64,000 bases of DNA from Intestinibaculum porci. Its GTDB lineage: Bacteria > Bacillota_I > Bacilli_A > Erysipelotrichales > Coprobacillaceae. Every line of letters begins with the position of its first letter. Positions within the stretch are counted from its first letter, which is position 1. The translations under genes and the position numbers were made by a program. The notes under the pieces were generated by a model that made no database searches, was not told the DNA's origin, and was given only the letters and a program-made list of their open reading frames with translations. Of the stretch, positions 46,535 through 54,901 are shown piece after piece. The stretch spans positions 310,001-374,000 of the forward strand of contig NZ_AP019309.1 in assembly GCF_003925875.1 (NCBI RefSeq), in the 5' to 3' direction.

Positions 46535-46640
46535 TATAATAAAGATATAGTTTTAACCTATAGTTAAGAGGCACTAATTTCTATAACCTCTATAGGGAAT
46601 TATGTTTTATAATAAAAAAGACAAAGAGAGGGTATACAAA
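46535..46640 (+). promoter_or_regulatory. Leader of the metF-metH operon with a long inverted repeat
   Basis: TATAAT at 46535-46540 would give a leader of about 95 bases. CCTATA (46557) then GAGG (46568) can pair with CCTCTATAGG (46587-46596), leaving a small bulge; the loop holds CACTAATTTCTATAA. A second TATAAT lies at 46608. No cobalamin riboswitch core or S-box is visible. It may be an operator or an RNA element. Confidence 0.45.
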
Positions 46641-47501
46641 GTGAAAATTATTGATCGTTTACAGGAAGACAAAATCACATTATCATTTGAAGTCTTTCCA
46701 CCAAAATATTCCAAGAACTATGACGCTGTTTCGCAGAAAGCCTTAGAGATTGCCAAGCTGCATCCGGATTTTATGTCCGTGACCTACGGCGCCGGCGGCG
46801 GAACGAGTGAATATACCGTGAATATCGCCAAAGAGATCCAGCAAAGGGAAGGCGTTGACGTCTTAGCCCATTTAACATGCGTCTCTTCCACCAAAGAGAA
46901 AGTGCATAATATGTTAGAGATCTTTAAAGCGAATGGCATTGAAAATATTATGGCCTTACGTGGTGATTTGCCAGATGGAGAAACACCGCATCATTATGAA
47001 CATGCCTCAGAACTGATTAAAGAAATCAAAGCCTTTGATCCGAATTTCTGTATTGGCGGAGCCTGTTATCCAGAAGGACATCCAGAAGCACATAATAAAA
47101 ATGTGGATATCGAAAATCTCAAAAAGAAAATCGATGCGGGCTGTGATTTCTTAACCTCCCAGATGTTCTTTGACAATGCCATCTTCTACAATTTCTTATT
47201 CCGCGCACGGGAAGCAGGCATCCAAGTGCCGATTGTGGCGGGCATTATGCCAATCACTAGAAAAGAGCAAGTAAAACGGGCGATCCAGTTATCTGGCTCC
47301 AGTGTGCCAGGTCGTTTCGTGTCCATGGTTGATGCCTTTGGCGACAATGAACCAGCGATGAAACAGGCTGGTATTATCTATGCGACCGAGCAGATTACGG
47401 ATCTGATCGCTAACGGGGTTAAACATATTCATGTTTATACGATGAATAAACCAGATGTGGCCAAAGGCATTATGGATAACTTATCGGAGATTTTGAAGTA
47501 A
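46641..47501 (+). CDS. metF: 5,10-methylenetetrahydrofolate reductase
   Basis: FAD enzyme making 5-methyl-THF, the methyl donor for methionine synthase; 286 residues from GTG 46641, which follows GAGAGGG. Signals: LSFEVFPPK at the start, SVTYGAGGG, LAHLTC, NIMALRGDLPDG, and QMFFDNAIFYNF. An ATG 13 codons earlier coincides with a -10-like box and adds unconserved residues. The stop overlaps the next ATG by one base, beginning a tightly coupled operon that runs to 52807. Confidence 0.95.
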   Translation: MKIIDRLQEDKITLSFEVFPPKYSKNYDAVSQKALEIAKLHPDFMSVTYGAGGGTSEYTVNIAKEIQQREGVDVLAHLTCVSSTKEKVHNMLEIFKANGIENIMALRGDLPDGETPHHYEHASELIKEIKAFDPNFCIGGACYPEGHPEAHNKNVDIENLKKKIDAGCDFLTSQMFFDNAIFYNFLFRAREAGIQVPIVAGIMPITRKEQVKRAIQLSGSSVPGRFVSMVDAFGDNEPAMKQAGIIYATEQITDLIANGVKHIHVYTMNKPDVAKGIMDNLSEILK

Positions 47502-48142
47502 TGAAGCCTATTCGGAAAAGTGAAGTCTTACGTTATCTGGGCTATAAGAAACATATGGATATCTCCGCAGAAACCGATCAGCTTGTCGATGAATGCATTG
47601 AAGACTTGAAAAAAGTGATTCAGCCGTCAATGACTTATCAGCGTTTTCCTCTTATTCGTCATGATGGAATCTTGGATATTTCCGGCATGGAAATATCTTC
47701 TCAAAGTTTATCGAAGAACTTAGAGAACTGTGAGGAAGTCTATCTGTTTGCGGCGACGGCGGGAATCGGTATTGACCGGATGATCAAACGAGCGGAATTA
47801 ACCAATATGGCTAAAGCCGCCATTTATCAGGCGGCGGGGGCTGAAATCGTTGAATGTATCTGCGACGAACTGAATGAAAAGCTAGCCGCGAAAGTGAAGG
47901 AAGAGGGGTACTTCCTGAAACCGCGCTTTTCTCCTGGCTATGGGGATACGACCCTGGAATTGCAAAAAGATTTTGAGCGGTTATTACATATGTCGGAGAT
48001 TGGCATTCATTTAAATGCCTCACTCTTAATGGTCCCTTCTAAAAGCGTGACCGCTTTTATTGGGATCACCAAGCAAAAACAAAAACGACAATCTGGATGC
48101 GCGTCGTGTGATCGTCTGGATTGCCCGGCAAGGAGGGAATAA
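47501..48142 (+). CDS. Methionine synthase reactivation-domain protein
   Basis: A 213-residue stand-alone relative of the C-terminal activation domain of MetH (Met_synt_B12), which reduces and remethylates inactive cob(II)alamin using SAM. Signals: LFAATAGIGIDRMI, and the SAM-binding stretch LKPRFSPGYGDTTLELQ, equal to the RxxxGYP-like site of MetH. The protein ends with CASCDRLDCPARRE, a Cys-rich tail. metH starts one base after its stop and lacks this domain itself, so the two should work as a split enzyme. Confidence 0.88.
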   Translation: MKPIRKSEVLRYLGYKKHMDISAETDQLVDECIEDLKKVIQPSMTYQRFPLIRHDGILDISGMEISSQSLSKNLENCEEVYLFAATAGIGIDRMIKRAELTNMAKAAIYQAAGAEIVECICDELNEKLAAKVKEEGYFLKPRFSPGYGDTTLELQKDFERLLHMSEIGIHLNASLLMVPSKSVTAFIGITKQKQKRQSGCASCDRLDCPARRE

Positions 48143-48143
48143 A

Positions 48144-50522
48144 GTGACATTTTTAGAGCGATTAGGAAAAGAATGGCTATTCTGGGATGGCGGTACCGGT
48201 ACGATTTTACAAAGCTGGGGTCTCAAAGCTGGGGAACTGCCAGAGCGCTGGAATATCGAACATCCTGAAAAAATCGTTGAACTTAATAGAATGTATTTCG
48301 AAGCGGGCAGTGATATCGTCAATACCAATACCTTTGGCGCTAATAGTTTAAAACTCCCTGGCGAGGTTGAAGCGGTTGTCACCGCCGCGGTGGAAAATGC
48401 GAAAAAAGCCCGCTTATTAGCGGGGCGTGATAATGATGGCTATATTGCCTTAGATATGGGCCCAACGGGAAAATTACTGGAGCCGCTTGGCGACTTGCCT
48501 TTTGAAAAAGCCATTGATCTTTATAAGGAAGTGGTGCGTGCCGGCGTAAAAGCTGGTGTTGATCTCATCCTTATTGAGACGATGACGGATTCTTATGAAA
48601 TGAAAGCTGCCGTTTTAGCGGCTAAAGAAGAAAGCGACTTACCCGTTTGTGTGACCATGACCTTTGATGAAAAGGGAAAACTGTTAACGGGGGGCACTCC
48701 GGAAGCGATGGCCGCAATGCTTGAAGGATTGCGTGTTGATGCCATCGGCGTCAACTGCGGCCTTGGTCCTAATCAGCTAAAGCCATTTGTGGAACGCTTA
48801 TGCGACGCCTCTTCATTGCCAATTATTGTCAATCCTAATGCTGGCTTACCAAAAAACAAAGATGGTGTGGATTACTATGATATGGGGCCAGAGGAATTTA
48901 CCGATTATATGGCGGATATTGCCCGCACTTGTGATGTAGCCGTATTAGGCGGCTGCTGCGGGACAACGCCGGATTATATTCGTTTAGAAAAAGAGAAGTG
49001 TCTCGCGATACCTTTTCGAAAGCCAACGGTGAAACATCATAGTCGCGTGACCTCTTTCTCGCAGGTTGTTGAGATTGGGAAAAAGCCCGTTATTATTGGG
49101 GAGCGTATTAACCCAACCGGGAAAAAGAAATTCAAAGCGGCGTTAAAAGAGCATGATATCAACTATATCTTATCGCAGGGTTTAGAGCAGGAAGATGCAG
49201 GTGCGCATATTCTTGATGTCAATGTTGGGTTACCGGGCATTGATGAACCGGCAATGTTAGTTGAAGTGATGACGAAACTGCAGAGCGTGCTCGCTTTACC
49301 GCTGCAGATTGATACCGGTGATGTCGTGGCGATGGAAAAAGCCTTACGCGCTTATAACGGGAAACCGATGTTAAACAGTGTGAATGGCAAACAGGAAACG
49401 ATGGATGCCGTTTTTCCATTAGTCGCAAAGTACGGCGCCGTCGTTGTGGCGCTGGCGTTAGATGAACGCGGCATTCCGCAAACCAGTGATGAACGTATTG
49501 AAATTGCCCAGAAGATTTACAAAGAAGCGGCGAAATATGGGATCTCAAAAGATGATATTGTCATTGATGGCTTAGCCATGACCGTTTCCTCTGATCCAAC
49601 ATCCGCCTTAACAACATTAGAGACAATCCGCCGGATTCGTGATGAATTACGTGGTCATTCGATTTTAGGGGTTTCCAATATTTCTTTCGGGTTACCGAAC
49701 CGTAAAGTTTTAAATGCGAACTTCTTTACCATGGCGATGCAGAATAGTTTATCCTGCGCGATTGTCAACCCGAACTTAAGTGCGATGATGGATAGCTATC
49801 GGGCTTATATTGCCTTATGCAATTTAGATACGAACTTTAATGAATATATTACCGCTTATGCGGATGTCAAAGCGGCGTCCGTAAAGAAAGAATCCCAGGC
49901 GATGAGCTTATATGAAAGTATTAAACGCGGGATGGATCAAAATGCGGCCGCGGCGACGAGAGAAGGGTTAAAGACCAAAGATGGTTTAACGCTGATTAAT
50001 GAAGAGTTAATTCCCGCTTTAGATGAAGTAGGGAAAGGCTTTGAAAAAGGGACACTCTTCTTACCGCAGCTTCTTATGAGCGCCGAAGCTGCCAAAGCAG
50101 CCTTTGCGGTCGTTAAAGAATCAATGCAGGGCCAAGCGCGTGAAGTCAAAGGACGTATTATCTTAGCGACAGTGAAAGGCGATGTTCATGATATTGGGAA
50201 GAATATCGTGAAAGTCATGTTAGAAAACTATGGCTTTGAAGTCTTAGATTTAGGCAAAGATGTGCCGCCGGAAAAGATTGTTCAGGTGGCGTTAGATGAA
50301 AATATTCGTTTAGTGGGTTTAAGTGCTTTGATGACCACGACAGTTGTCTCAATGGAAGAAACGATTAAACAGCTACGAGCCAAGAAGCCAGACACGTTAG
50401 TATGTGTTGGCGGGGCCGTGATGACCCAGGATTATGCCGATGAAATCGGTGCAGATGCGTATTGTAATGATGCAATGGAAACAGTGCATTATGCCAATAA
50501 AGTTTTTCATGTGGAGGAGTAA
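48144..50522 (+). CDS. metH: Cobalamin-dependent methionine synthase, without activation domain
   Basis: Transfers methyl from 5-methyl-THF to homocysteine through B12; 792 residues. Order: homocysteine domain with zinc Cys205 (VNCGLGP) and Cys271/272 (GGCCGTTP); pterin domain with IIGERINPTGKKKF around 320; cap and B12 domain with DVHDIG, the cobalt His at 682. The protein stops after the B12 domain; the full E. coli enzyme has about 1,230 residues. The missing part is encoded just upstream. GTG 48144 follows AGGAGGGA; a longer frame overlaps the upstream gene. Confidence 0.95.
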   Translation: MTFLERLGKEWLFWDGGTGTILQSWGLKAGELPERWNIEHPEKIVELNRMYFEAGSDIVNTNTFGANSLKLPGEVEAVVTAAVENAKKARLLAGRDNDGYIALDMGPTGKLLEPLGDLPFEKAIDLYKEVVRAGVKAGVDLILIETMTDSYEMKAAVLAAKEESDLPVCVTMTFDEKGKLLTGGTPEAMAAMLEGLRVDAIGVNCGLGPNQLKPFVERLCDASSLPIIVNPNAGLPKNKDGVDYYDMGPEEFTDYMADIARTCDVAVLGGCCGTTPDYIRLEKEKCLAIPFRKPTVKHHSRVTSFSQVVEIGKKPVIIGERINPTGKKKFKAALKEHDINYILSQGLEQEDAGAHILDVNVGLPGIDEPAMLVEVMTKLQSVLALPLQIDTGDVVAMEKALRAYNGKPMLNSVNGKQETMDAVFPLVAKYGAVVVALALDERGIPQTSDERIEIAQKIYKEAAKYGISKDDIVIDGLAMTVSSDPTSALTTLETIRRIRDELRGHSILGVSNISFGLPNRKVLNANFFTMAMQNSLSCAIVNPNLSAMMDSYRAYIALCNLDTNFNEYITAYADVKAASVKKESQAMSLYESIKRGMDQNAAAATREGLKTKDGLTLINEELIPALDEVGKGFEKGTLFLPQLLMSAEAAKAAFAVVKESMQGQAREVKGRIILATVKGDVHDIGKNIVKVMLENYGFEVLDLGKDVPPEKIVQVALDENIRLVGLSALMTTTVVSMEETIKQLRAKKPDTLVCVGGAVMTQDYADEIGADAYCNDAMETVHYANKVFHVEE

Positions 50523-50527
50523 AAGAT

Positions 50528-51916
50528 ATGAAGAAAATTTTAACCGGCTTACTGTCAGCCGCAATGACGGTGTCAATGGCGACAACGGTGGCGTTAGCAG
50601 CCAATTCACAGACGAAGGTGAAACCAGCTTTAAACAAAGTGGTTGGCTACTACACCAAAAATAACACCCTCTCTTCGAGTGATCAGGTTATTTCTGTAGC
50701 TTCTTTAGGCTTAGATGCCTCAAGTAAAAGCTTCAAATTGGATCCTGATTATAAAAAGTCATTGGCATCTTTATCAACAAAATCTATTGGTGAATTTACG
50801 AAAGGAATCGTAGCCATTACCTTATTAGGTGATAATCCTGCTTCTTATCAGGGCAAGAATTATGTCAAAAGCTTAGAAGGCTTAGTCGCTAAAGATGGTT
50901 CCATCAAAGGAACAACTGGCCCTAACCAATCTGTTTATGCACTTTATGCTTTAGAGTCAGTTAATTCATCTAAAGTTTCTGTGGCCGCTAAATACTTAGC
51001 TTCACAGGCTATGGATAACGGAGCTTTCTGGTATAACTACAATGGCAAGTTTGCGGATGATGCAACGACGGCCTGGGTCATTGAAGCATTAACTTTAGCC
51101 AATAAAAAAACATATGCCCCTGTTATTAATAAAGCTTTTGCCTATTTAGAAGGCGGCTATAAGCAGGATGGCTCTTATGACAATAGCGGTTTTGGTGGTA
51201 ACGCGGATACGCAATCTTGCGTCTTACAGGCTTATGCCGTTTACAATAAAAAGTCAATGAAAACGAAAGCGGTAGATTATCTGCTTTCAAAACAGTTAGA
51301 TGATGGTTCATTTAGTGCTCTTAACTATACAACAGGTAAGGAAGAAAGCAACGCTTATACAACGGTTGAAGCAGCGCGCGCTTTAGGTACATATACTTAT
51401 GGCTCTGTTTATCAGCAAGCTGCTGCTTTCAATGCCTCATATCATAAACTGACAAAAGATAACGTGAAGTTATCAAAGACGACTTATGTTTATAATGGTA
51501 AACGCCAGCAGCCAACCGTCAAAGTCACTTATGACAAAAAAGCTCTTAATAAGAAAAACTACGTTGTCACATTACCAAAAGAAGCTAAGAAAGTTGGCAA
51601 ATATACGATCACGGTCAAAGGAAAGGAAGATTATAAGGGCATTGTTAAAGTCACTTATACAATCACTCCGGCAGCGGTGAAAGTCAAGAGCGTGAAAGGC
51701 GTCAAGAAAGGCTTTGTTGTATCTTATCAGAAAGCGCCTAAAACAACTGTGCAGGTGGCTTATACTTTAGACAAGAAAACAACCTATAAAAAGACGACTA
51801 AATCAGTCTTAAAAGTTTCTGCTTTAAAAGCTGGTAAAACATACGATGTGAAAGTCCGTGCTTTACAGAATGGGGTTTATGGACCTTGGTCTAAGAGTGT
51901 TCAGGTGAAAGCTTAA
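50528..51916 (+). CDS. Secreted alpha/alpha-toroid protein, transcobalamin-like
   Basis: A 462-residue exported protein with signal peptide MKKILTGLLSAAMTVSMATT and cleavage after ALAA near residue 25. Residues 30-300 form repeated helix pairs of the terpene-cyclase/prenyltransferase toroid type, with KDGSIKGTTGPNQSVYALYAL, DDATTAWVIEAL, KQDGSYDNSGFGGNADTQS and LDDGSFSALN. This is the fold of the N-terminal domain of transcobalamin and intrinsic factor. A beta domain (305-380) and a fibronectin-like domain follow. Six bases after metH with its ribosome site inside metH. A corrinoid ligand is inference from context. Confidence 0.8.
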   Translation: MKKILTGLLSAAMTVSMATTVALAANSQTKVKPALNKVVGYYTKNNTLSSSDQVISVASLGLDASSKSFKLDPDYKKSLASLSTKSIGEFTKGIVAITLLGDNPASYQGKNYVKSLEGLVAKDGSIKGTTGPNQSVYALYALESVNSSKVSVAAKYLASQAMDNGAFWYNYNGKFADDATTAWVIEALTLANKKTYAPVINKAFAYLEGGYKQDGSYDNSGFGGNADTQSCVLQAYAVYNKKSMKTKAVDYLLSKQLDDGSFSALNYTTGKEESNAYTTVEAARALGTYTYGSVYQQAAAFNASYHKLTKDNVKLSKTTYVYNGKRQQPTVKVTYDKKALNKKNYVVTLPKEAKKVGKYTITVKGKEDYKGIVKVTYTITPAAVKVKSVKGVKKGFVVSYQKAPKTTVQVAYTLDKKTTYKKTTKSVLKVSALKAGKTYDVKVRALQNGVYGPWSKSVQVKA

Positions 51917-52284
51917 TGCGAAAGATTCTTATTTGCCTGATGTTAGCACTCGGCTTAGTGATCAGTCCGGTCAGTGCGAAAAAGAAAAAGGCTATGGTGA
52001 CGCTAAAAGTTATTGGTATTCATAAAACTTTTTACAACAAAAAACTGAGTTATAAAAAAGGAGAAACAGCTTATACGCTTTTAAAGCGCAGTAAGCTTAA
52101 ACTGAAAACCAAAGGCTTTGGGCCGTTCCTCTATGTTTCATCGATCAATGGCTTGGCGGAAAAGACGCATGGCAATCTTTCAGGCTGGATGTATAAAGTT
52201 GGGAAAAAAGCGCCTAATGTGGGGGCGAATGCTTATAAGCTGAAGGCTAATATGAAAGTCACATGGTATTATGTCAATTATTAA
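51916..52284 (+). CDS. Secreted DUF4430 protein (transcobalamin C-terminal-like)
   Basis: A 122-residue exported protein: signal peptide of about 21 residues (MRKILICLMLALGLVISPVSA), then a single DUF4430 domain with GETAYTLLKRS, FGPFLYVSSINGLAEK, LSGWMYKVGKK and VTWYYVNY. DUF4430 is the domain found at the C-terminus of eukaryotic transcobalamins. Its ATG shares one base with the stop of the toroid gene, so the two proteins correspond to the two halves of transcobalamin made as separate chains. B12 binding is inferred. Confidence 0.82.
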   Translation: MRKILICLMLALGLVISPVSAKKKKAMVTLKVIGIHKTFYNKKLSYKKGETAYTLLKRSKLKLKTKGFGPFLYVSSINGLAEKTHGNLSGWMYKVGKKAPNVGANAYKLKANMKVTWYYVNY

Positions 52285-52807
52285 ATTCCCGTCGGTTAAA
52301 GAAATTGCGTTAATTGGGATCTTAGCTGCAGTGAATATCGCTTCGCGATTATTCCTGCAGTTTTTGCCCAATATTAAACCGGTGACCGCGATTATTATTT
52401 TATCAGTCATGCTCTTTGGCTTAGCCTTTGGCTTAAAACTGACGATTGTCACAACGATCGTTTCTGATGTCTTTTTAGGCCTTGGCTTATGGACGGTGTT
52501 TCAGATTCTGGCCTGGAGCGTGATTTGTCTTTTGACGAGTTTATTAATGATTCCTTATCGTCGGAAAGAACATGGACCGCCGTTAATACCGATGGCCATT
52601 TACAGTGCCGCGATGGGCTTTGTCTTTGGTTTTGTCGTCTCTTTTGAACAGTTTGTTTATGGCGGCTGGGGTCTTTTTATTCCTTACTACATCGCCGGGC
52701 TGAGTTTTGATGCTTTGCATGCTGGAGGCAATTTCTTTTTCTATCTCATCTGTGCCCCGATTCTGATGAAAGTGATGAAAAATGAAGCTAAAAAATTAGT
52801 ACATTAA
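52271..52807 (+). CDS. ECF transporter S component, probably for cobalamin
   Basis: A 178-residue substrate-binding membrane subunit of an energy-coupling-factor importer, with about five to six helices. Typical signals are KEIALIGILAAVNIASRLFLQ near the start and the conserved AFAFG-like LAFGLKLTI stretch, then YIAGLSFDALHAGGNFFFY. The ATP-binding and T subunits are not in the window and would be shared. It overlaps the DUF4430 gene by 14 bases and ends the metF-metH operon, so B12 or a precursor is the likely substrate. Confidence 0.83.
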   Translation: MSIIKFPSVKEIALIGILAAVNIASRLFLQFLPNIKPVTAIIILSVMLFGLAFGLKLTIVTTIVSDVFLGLGLWTVFQILAWSVICLLTSLLMIPYRRKEHGPPLIPMAIYSAAMGFVFGFVVSFEQFVYGGWGLFIPYYIAGLSFDALHAGGNFFFYLICAPILMKVMKNEAKKLVH

Positions 52808-52830
52808 AAGGCTGCTTATTGGCAGCCTTT
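52806..52830. terminator. Terminator of the metH/B12 operon
   Basis: AAAGGCTGC-TTATTG-GCAGCCTTT with T-rich flank; A-rich on the other side, so it may serve the convergent gene too. Confidence 0.85.
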
Positions 52831-52834
52831 CATT

Positions 52835-54901
52835 TTATTCTTTTGGTTTACGAGCGGCGATCACGCGCTGCTGTAAAGTGGAATCCATGAATTCATAATC
52901 TAAGAATTCCTGATCGAAGAAGCCCTGACCTTGCGTCATCGAACGTAAGTCAATCGCATAGTTCATGATTTCTGTCTGTGGCGCTTCAGCGGTAATCTTC
53001 ATGATGCGGTCATCTAAGATTTCCTGACCGATGACACGGGCACGATGTTTATTGAAATGCGACATAATATCGCCCATGAATTCTTCTGGTACATAAACAT
53101 TGATCGTGACATATGGTTCTAATAAAGCTGGTTTCGCTTCTGGCAATGCTTCCTTGAAGCACATAATCGTGGCTGTCTTGAAGGCTTGTTCACTAGAATC
53201 GACAGAGTGATAAGAACCATCGAGTAAAGTGGCTTTTAAGCCTAAAACTGGATAAGAGGCTAAAACACCATGCTTGCAGGCTTCCTGTAAGCCTTTTTCA
53301 ACAGCTGGGAAATAGCTCTTAGGGACGGCGCCGCCAAAGACTTGTTCTTCAAAGACATAAGCGGTGCTGTAGTCATGAGATGGTTCGAATTTAATTTCGA
53401 CATCACCATACTGGCCATGACCGCCAGATTGTTTCTTGTATTTTGTACGATGGGTGACTTCGCCACGAATGGTTTCGCGATAAGGGATGATAATATCATC
53501 TAAAGCCACTTCAACTTTGTATTTATTCTTTAAGCGAGAGACAACTGAGTCTAAGTGAATATCACCTAAACCATAGAGGCACTGCTGAGATGTTTCGGCA
53601 TTGGTTACAAAACGCAGGCAAGGATCTTCTTCGAGGAAACGCGCGAGCGCTGCCGAGATCTTGTCTTCGTTCGTTTTGCCAAGCGGACGAATAGCACGGC
53701 CATAATATGGCTGTGAGAATTTGATCGGTTCGACTTCGATTGGGAAGTTTTTATCGGATAAGACATCATTGGTCTTGGTATGATCGAGTTTCTGAATGGC
53801 CCCGATATCACCGGCGTTGAGTTCATCAACTTCAATCATGTTCTTGCCCTGCATAATATACAGCTTCGCTAATTTTTCTTCCCCTTTATTACGCTGATTA
53901 ATGAGTGTCATATTCGGACGGATCGTCCCGGTTAACACCTTGATTAATGAAATACGACCGATAAATGGGTCAGAATAAGTTTTGAAAACCTGCGCTGCAG
54001 GCGGCAACTTTTCATCGAAACCGATGATTTCATCTTCATCGGTCAGATTATTATGAATGATGAAGGAATTGCTCATATCACCGCTGGCGCTAAAGAACGC
54101 TACCATCGAATTTAAAATGATGGAAATACCAATCTGATCAGTGCCGCAAAGCACCGGAATCAAGGTCTTATTGACTACGCCAAGGCGTAAAGCCTGAGAA
54201 ATCTCTTCACGTGTAAATGGTTCTTCATTGAGATATTTCTCTAATAATTCATCGCTGGTGTTAGCGACGGCTTCATCGATCATCGCTTTAACCGGTTCAA
54301 TGAGATCATCCATACCTTCAGGAATAGGACAAGGATGGGTCTGATCACCTTCAAAACGACGGCCTTCCATTTTCGCGACATTGACATAGCCGACCATTTT
54401 TTCGCCTTCCATGATTGGCACCTGGATTGGGGCGATGACTTTGCCATAGGTATCCTGTAATTCTTTCAGCTTTTCATGATAATTGCCATTTGGTTTATCG
54501 ATGCCGTTGATATAAATCATGCGGGCTTTATCGTGTGCTTTATACATCGCTTCTTTAGTTCCGGTGGTCAAGCCTTTGGTGGCTGGGACGATGATTAAAA
54601 CACTTTCTGATACCGCTAAGGCTGCATCGACTTCACCATTGAAATCAAAAGCACCCGGAGTATCAAGTAAATTGATTTTACAGTTATTCCATTCCACAGG
54701 AATAGGGGTCAAAGAAATTGAAGACTGACGTCTGACTTCTTCGGGATCATAATCGGAAAGCGTGTTTCCGCGTTGAATTGTTCCAACTTGGCCTATCTGA
54801 CCACTACGATAAGCCATGGCCTCAATTACGGATGTCTTGCCACTTCCTGAGTGTCCGAGAACCGCAACAGTGCCCATTTCGTTGGAGTGATAGTTTCTCA
54901 T
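52835..54901 (-). CDS. Elongation factor G-like protein with altered GTPase site
   Basis: A 688-residue EF-G paralogue with all five domains (domain IV contains QSGGHGQYGDVEIKF). The GTPase motifs are unusual: G1 is GHSGSGKT (residues 16-23); G3 is DTPGAFDF, with Ala in place of the catalytic His; G4 is NGID rather than NKMD. This matches the EF-G-like/EF-G2 group, whose role is unclear, rather than the true translocase. ATG 54901 follows AAAAGGAGATGA. Monocistronic; codon use is ordinary. Confidence 0.85.
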   Translation of the reverse strand: MRNYHSNEMGTVAVLGHSGSGKTSVIEAMAYRSGQIGQVGTIQRGNTLSDYDPEEVRRQSSISLTPIPVEWNNCKINLLDTPGAFDFNGEVDAALAVSESVLIIVPATKGLTTGTKEAMYKAHDKARMIYINGIDKPNGNYHEKLKELQDTYGKVIAPIQVPIMEGEKMVGYVNVAKMEGRRFEGDQTHPCPIPEGMDDLIEPVKAMIDEAVANTSDELLEKYLNEEPFTREEISQALRLGVVNKTLIPVLCGTDQIGISIILNSMVAFFSASGDMSNSFIIHNNLTDEDEIIGFDEKLPPAAQVFKTYSDPFIGRISLIKVLTGTIRPNMTLINQRNKGEEKLAKLYIMQGKNMIEVDELNAGDIGAIQKLDHTKTNDVLSDKNFPIEVEPIKFSQPYYGRAIRPLGKTNEDKISAALARFLEEDPCLRFVTNAETSQQCLYGLGDIHLDSVVSRLKNKYKVEVALDDIIIPYRETIRGEVTHRTKYKKQSGGHGQYGDVEIKFEPSHDYSTAYVFEEQVFGGAVPKSYFPAVEKGLQEACKHGVLASYPVLGLKATLLDGSYHSVDSSEQAFKTATIMCFKEALPEAKPALLEPYVTINVYVPEEFMGDIMSHFNKHRARVIGQEILDDRIMKITAEAPQTEIMNYAIDLRSMTQGQGFFDQEFLDYEFMDSTLQQRVIAARKPKE

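Follow-up and report, generated by a model that had tools for sequence, protein, structure and literature searches.

In the genome of Intestinibaculum porci, three genes on the forward strand lie directly behind a gene for B12-dependent methionine synthase, and we refer to them as T (50528-51916), D (51916-52284) and S (52271-52807). Coordinates are those of the analysed window, a stretch of 64,000 nucleotides (RefSeq assembly GCF_003925875.1, contig NZ_AP019309.1, positions 310,001 to 374,000). T and D overlap by one base and D and S by 14 bases, and T starts six bases after the last base of metH. T is a secreted protein with a signal-peptide-like start, a predicted alpha/alpha toroid (about residues 25-308) and an Ig/fn3-like C-terminal beta region (about residues 310-462), D is a secreted single-domain DUF4430 protein, and S is a CbrT-like ECF S component. 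The sequence-only reading had described the three genes and their overlaps correctly, but did not mention the beta region of T.

The three genes are the end of a co-directional block on the forward strand that begins with metF (46602-47501; PF02219, 1.3e-84). It is followed by a separate Met_synt_B12 activation-domain protein (47501-48142; PF02965, 1.6e-6) and by metH (48060-50522), which lacks the activation domain but has the S-methyl_trans, Pterin_bind, B12-binding and B12-binding_2 domains. Judged from the sequence, the true start of metH is probably near 48144. Immediately after S, at 52808-52840, an inverted repeat AAAGGCTGC...GCAGCCTTT is followed by a T-rich run, a probable terminator that closes the operon before the convergent gene.

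Sequence and structure of the three proteins

In Pfam, S matched ECF_trnsprt only below its cut-off (6.9e-5), but in the PDB its only significant match was 6fnp, ECF-CbrT of Lactobacillus delbrueckii, at E=1e-24 over residues 10-166 with about 35% identity. That complex has been shown experimentally to transport cobalamin and cobinamide (PMC5997447). When the class was searched with the CbrT fragment, the family of the window gave the best matches.

D matched DUF4430 (PF14478, 1.5e-17, residues 49-120) and is the only DUF4430 protein in the genome. A profile of full-length D found only low-complexity matches to its linker in the PDB, but a profile trimmed to the domain matched 3u7z at 5e-16 and haptocorrin (4kki) at 3.6e-5, with transcobalamin-2 and intrinsic factor weaker.

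T gave weak Prenyltrans and SQHop_cyclase matches in Pfam and an fn3-like match at residues 390-460. A broad T profile matched squalene-hopene cyclases best (1.6e-10) and reached intrinsic factor at E=0.0036. AlphaFold2 predicted a confident toroid for residues 1-308 (pLDDT 92.6, pTM 0.88), and a Foldseek search with the model matched, among others, drimenyl diphosphate synthase (2.3e-6), transcobalamin (2.0e-4) and intrinsic factor (9.9e-4). By itself the toroid does not discriminate between cyclases and B12 carriers. The DXDD and QW motifs of the cyclases are however absent from the window T and not conserved in the family, with one stray match each in 21 sequences, and residues 1-308 of the window T contain only one Cys and one His.

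Conservation and natural fusions

The order T-D-S recurs in 19 distinct loci (28 were fetched, nine of them twice) and is thus not due to chance. Most of the relatives are from gut genera of the window's family or near it, i.e. Kandleria, Sharpea, Faecalibacillus, Massilimicrobiota, Longibaculum, Stoquefichus and Thomasclavelia, and one is from a different family (locus L136; retrieved loci are given by their L numbers). The neighbours differ. The genes metF, activation domain and metH are adjacent in only five of the loci, the window, L032, L036, L039 and L041, all with the same split of metH, while metG is found in L033 and, by position, in L034, and a GT4 and RNase R neighbourhood in L035 and its like. 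It is the T-D-S unit that is conserved, and not its link to metH.

In other families of the class, a lipoprotein with DUF4430 first and the toroid second precedes a separate D and S (12 loci). Many Clostridia encode T and D as one chain in transcobalamin order. In the order of the L191 genome, 105 of 295 genomes match the T-D protein of L191, and 31 retrieved ORFs, some of them duplicates, hold both domains in one chain with the toroid first, for instance in L191, L184 and L200. These chains have a signal peptide, the toroid, a linker, two adjacent TM segments and then DUF4430. In most of the window's family T ends with a hydrophobic segment and D begins with one, so the two-gene form looks like the fused chain cut in the loop between the TM segments, although the direction of that change is not shown. 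The T proteins of the window and of Kandleria lack the C-terminal TM segment and carry a beta region instead. In L111 (5994-7151) a single ORF fuses an extracellular DUF4430 domain to an ECF S component.

A profile of the fused T-D chain hit only cyclases by sequence, and the relation to transcobalamin thus rests on structure for the fused chain, and otherwise on two profiles, one of them the trimmed D-domain profile. The AlphaFold2 model of the L184 chain (pLDDT 85.7, pTM 0.60) had transcobalamin, intrinsic factor or haptocorrin as its first 15 PDB matches, with E from 3.3e-7 to 9.5e-6 over 449-520 columns, against 4.0e-4 for the next hit. Its beta domain matched the transcobalamin beta domain bound to CNCbl (5np4, TMt 0.69, rmsd 2.8 A). 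The whole-chain TM-score was low, with an rmsd of about 20 A over both domains, since the placement of the domains is not fixed in the model, and the closed arrangement of transcobalamin was not obtained.

Regulation and genomic context

All 13 T-containing D-T-D-S or T-D-S loci of one set scanned had an Rfam cobalamin riboswitch just upstream of the first gene, which in every one of them was the T-containing gene. In the window's family, all six loci scanned that are not linked to metH had one, and L178 an AdoCbl riboswitch, while the four metH-linked relatives and the window had none. A cobalamin riboswitch was also found in ten of 15 loci of a mostly D-S set, in L189, and in five of 20 loci of the Clostridia set, where most loci are short. 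The distances from the ORF start run from about -40 to +150 bases, negative values being ORFs called too long. In Christensenella intestinihominis (L180, 4063-9492), an AdoCbl riboswitch is followed by a 1557-aa protein with a DUF4430 domain and then an S component that is 49% identical to the window S, a possible gene transfer between distant lineages.

The window genome has no cobalamin riboswitch. It has only two TP_methylase genes, one a CobA-HemD type (SUMT) in a siroheme-like cluster and one of 319 aa that was not examined further, and no corrin-ring methylases beyond SUMT were seen. The genome uses B12 through MetH and, on this evidence, must import it. A housekeeping EcfA1-EcfA2-EcfT-truA-type locus is present, and the only FecCD-type system found, with two FecCD genes, lies beside a siderophore-like binding protein (substrate inferred).

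D-S pairs are also found together with nrdJ and pduO. The order nrdJ-DUF4430-S-pduO in Lactobacillus intestinalis equals the published nrdJ-cbrS-cbrT-pduO of L. delbrueckii (PMC5997447), and we infer that CbrS is very probably a D protein.

Discussion

The most likely explanation is that T and D are the alpha and beta halves of a bacterial transcobalamin-like cobamide binder, made as two secreted chains and working with the CbrT-type S component encoded with them. We hypothesize that D binds a cobamide outside the cell, that T closes over the complex, giving high affinity and possibly protecting the ligand, that the complex docks on S, which takes the cobamide, and that S joins the EcfA1-EcfA2-EcfT module so that the cobamide is released inside for MetH. 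These steps and the two-chain complex are inferred from homology, fold, fusions and regulation and have no binding data behind them, characterised ECF importers need no extracellular partner, and D-S or S alone occurs in many genomes, so T is dispensable to some, but we hold the explanation with rather high confidence. It agrees with the sequence-only reading, which proposed that the two halves of transcobalamin are here separate chains that clamp B12 and hand it to S. The toroid does not match only prenyltransferases or lyases, and S does not group with a non-corrinoid family. The closeness to metH, which that reading also noted, is however incidental, and the unit is one form of a widespread system.

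There is a precedent for a clamp of two chains. Human transcobalamin alpha and beta domains made separately co-elute only when CNCbl is present, and the beta domain alone binds CNCbl and cobinamide (PMC5599065). In this family cobalamin binds beta first and alpha then closes (PMC11107200). A two-chain clamp of T and D is therefore plausible without a covalent link. The animal carriers release B12 only after proteolysis (PMC11107200), and the hand-off to S remains an inference, but the D-S fusion and the frequent adjacency of D and S suggest that D contacts S.

An alternative is that only D and S form the uptake unit, and that T is a surface or scaffold protein, for adhesion or wall binding, that travels with them without contacting the vitamin. 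D-S pairs without T are as common as T-D-S in the loci examined. The window T ends in an fn3/Ig-like region typical of surface proteins, and in [Clostridium] spiroforme and a relative (L166, 6977-8251; L167, 6976-8268) the T position holds an ORF of 424-430 aa with no toroid match although D and S are kept. Nevertheless, T is fused to D in two orders and two different topologies, it is the T-containing gene that comes first behind the riboswitch in the 13 loci, and the best structural relatives of the T-D chain are B12 carriers, and we find this alternative unlikely.

That T would be an enzyme of the terpene cyclase, prenyltransferase or lyase fold, unrelated to B12, has in its favour that the isolated toroid scores better against squalene-hopene cyclase and drimenyl diphosphate synthase than against transcobalamin. 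But the cyclase motifs are not conserved, Cys and His are few, so there is no conserved zinc site, T is exported, and it is fused to DUF4430 and controlled by B12 riboswitches in relatives, which makes this very improbable. It is also possible, but rather doubtful, that the system mainly captures another corrinoid, such as cobinamide or cobamides with other lower ligands, or a metal chelate. CbrT also carries cobinamide (PMC5997447), the beta domain of transcobalamin binds it (PMC5599065), and the nearest solved DUF4430 structure, 3u7z, is titled "putative metal binding protein". The riboswitches and the metH, nrdJ and pduO neighbours point to corrinoids in general, but nothing in our data separates the cobamides from one another.

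Animal transcobalamin, intrinsic factor and haptocorrin share with T and D the toroid and the DUF4430-type beta domain, with profile and fold matches to both halves. Here the domains are on two chains and encoded with an importer, rather than taken up by receptor endocytosis, and some bacterial relatives have the reversed D-T order. Pfam Cobalamin_bind (PF01122) was not found in T and reached only E=0.017 in L191, 14.5 bits against a cut-off of 25, and a literature search for the contact residues of transcobalamin gave nothing. Although the system probably works like a transcobalamin, we do not place it in that family, because the domains are not in one chain, the PF01122 cut-off is not reached and binding is not shown. 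In the L. delbrueckii nrdJ-cbrS-cbrT-pduO cluster no toroid gene is listed, and no role for CbrS is given in the parts of PMC5997447 consulted, while here D is joined by T. BtuG, BtuH and the DUF4465 surface binders of Bacteroidetes are also dedicated to extracellular B12 capture in gut bacteria, but have other folds, such as the BtuG beta-propeller, work with outer-membrane BtuB (PMC6977713, PMC10404256, PMC8941943, PMC13398666) and are not related to the toroid plus DUF4430. BtuF of BtuCDF has the comparable role of an extracytoplasmic binder that feeds an ATP-driven importer, but its fold and transporter class are different.

B12 import in Gram-positive gut bacteria is largely unassigned, and our results assign a likely role to DUF4430 and its toroid partner across Bacillota and predict what the unexplained cbrS gene does. 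We found no description of a bacterial toroid/DUF4430 B12 system in the open literature searched, which does not exclude subscription papers. A more far-reaching hypothesis, which we consider slightly more probable than not, is that Bacillota possess a widespread class of bacterial transcobalamins, two-chain or single-chain in T-D or D-T order, that act as dedicated extracellular cobamide clamps for ECF-CbrT importers. ECF transporters are generally thought to work without extracytoplasmic binding proteins, and these would then be ECF transporters that have one. The animal B12 carriers may descend from, or share an ancestor with, this bacterial module, and the link makes their origin, and possible competition for B12 in the gut, directly testable.

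In L063 (5789-8146), L064 (3973-6339) and L065 (2440-4641), beta-propeller (PQQ/BamB-like) proteins, one with a weak LPXTG anchor match, lie next to S in D-EcfT-EcfA-S operons and are a possible further surface capture component, and in L188 (3405-5702) a transglutaminase-core protein is directly upstream of D-EcfT-EcfA-S. Genes for B12-dependent ribonucleotide reductase, adenosyltransferase and a CbrT-like S component travel together on plasmids of L. plantarum (L237), E. faecalis (L238) and L. intestinalis (L236), with DUF4430 in the lactobacilli, as a portable B12-dependent RNR module. Arrays of DUF4430 domains occur, with three domains in L110 (4999-7861) and L112 (4558-5592), and in L110 and L128 (3714-5657) a DUF4430 protein takes the place of the toroid gene behind a cobalamin riboswitch, which suggests beta-only capture variants.
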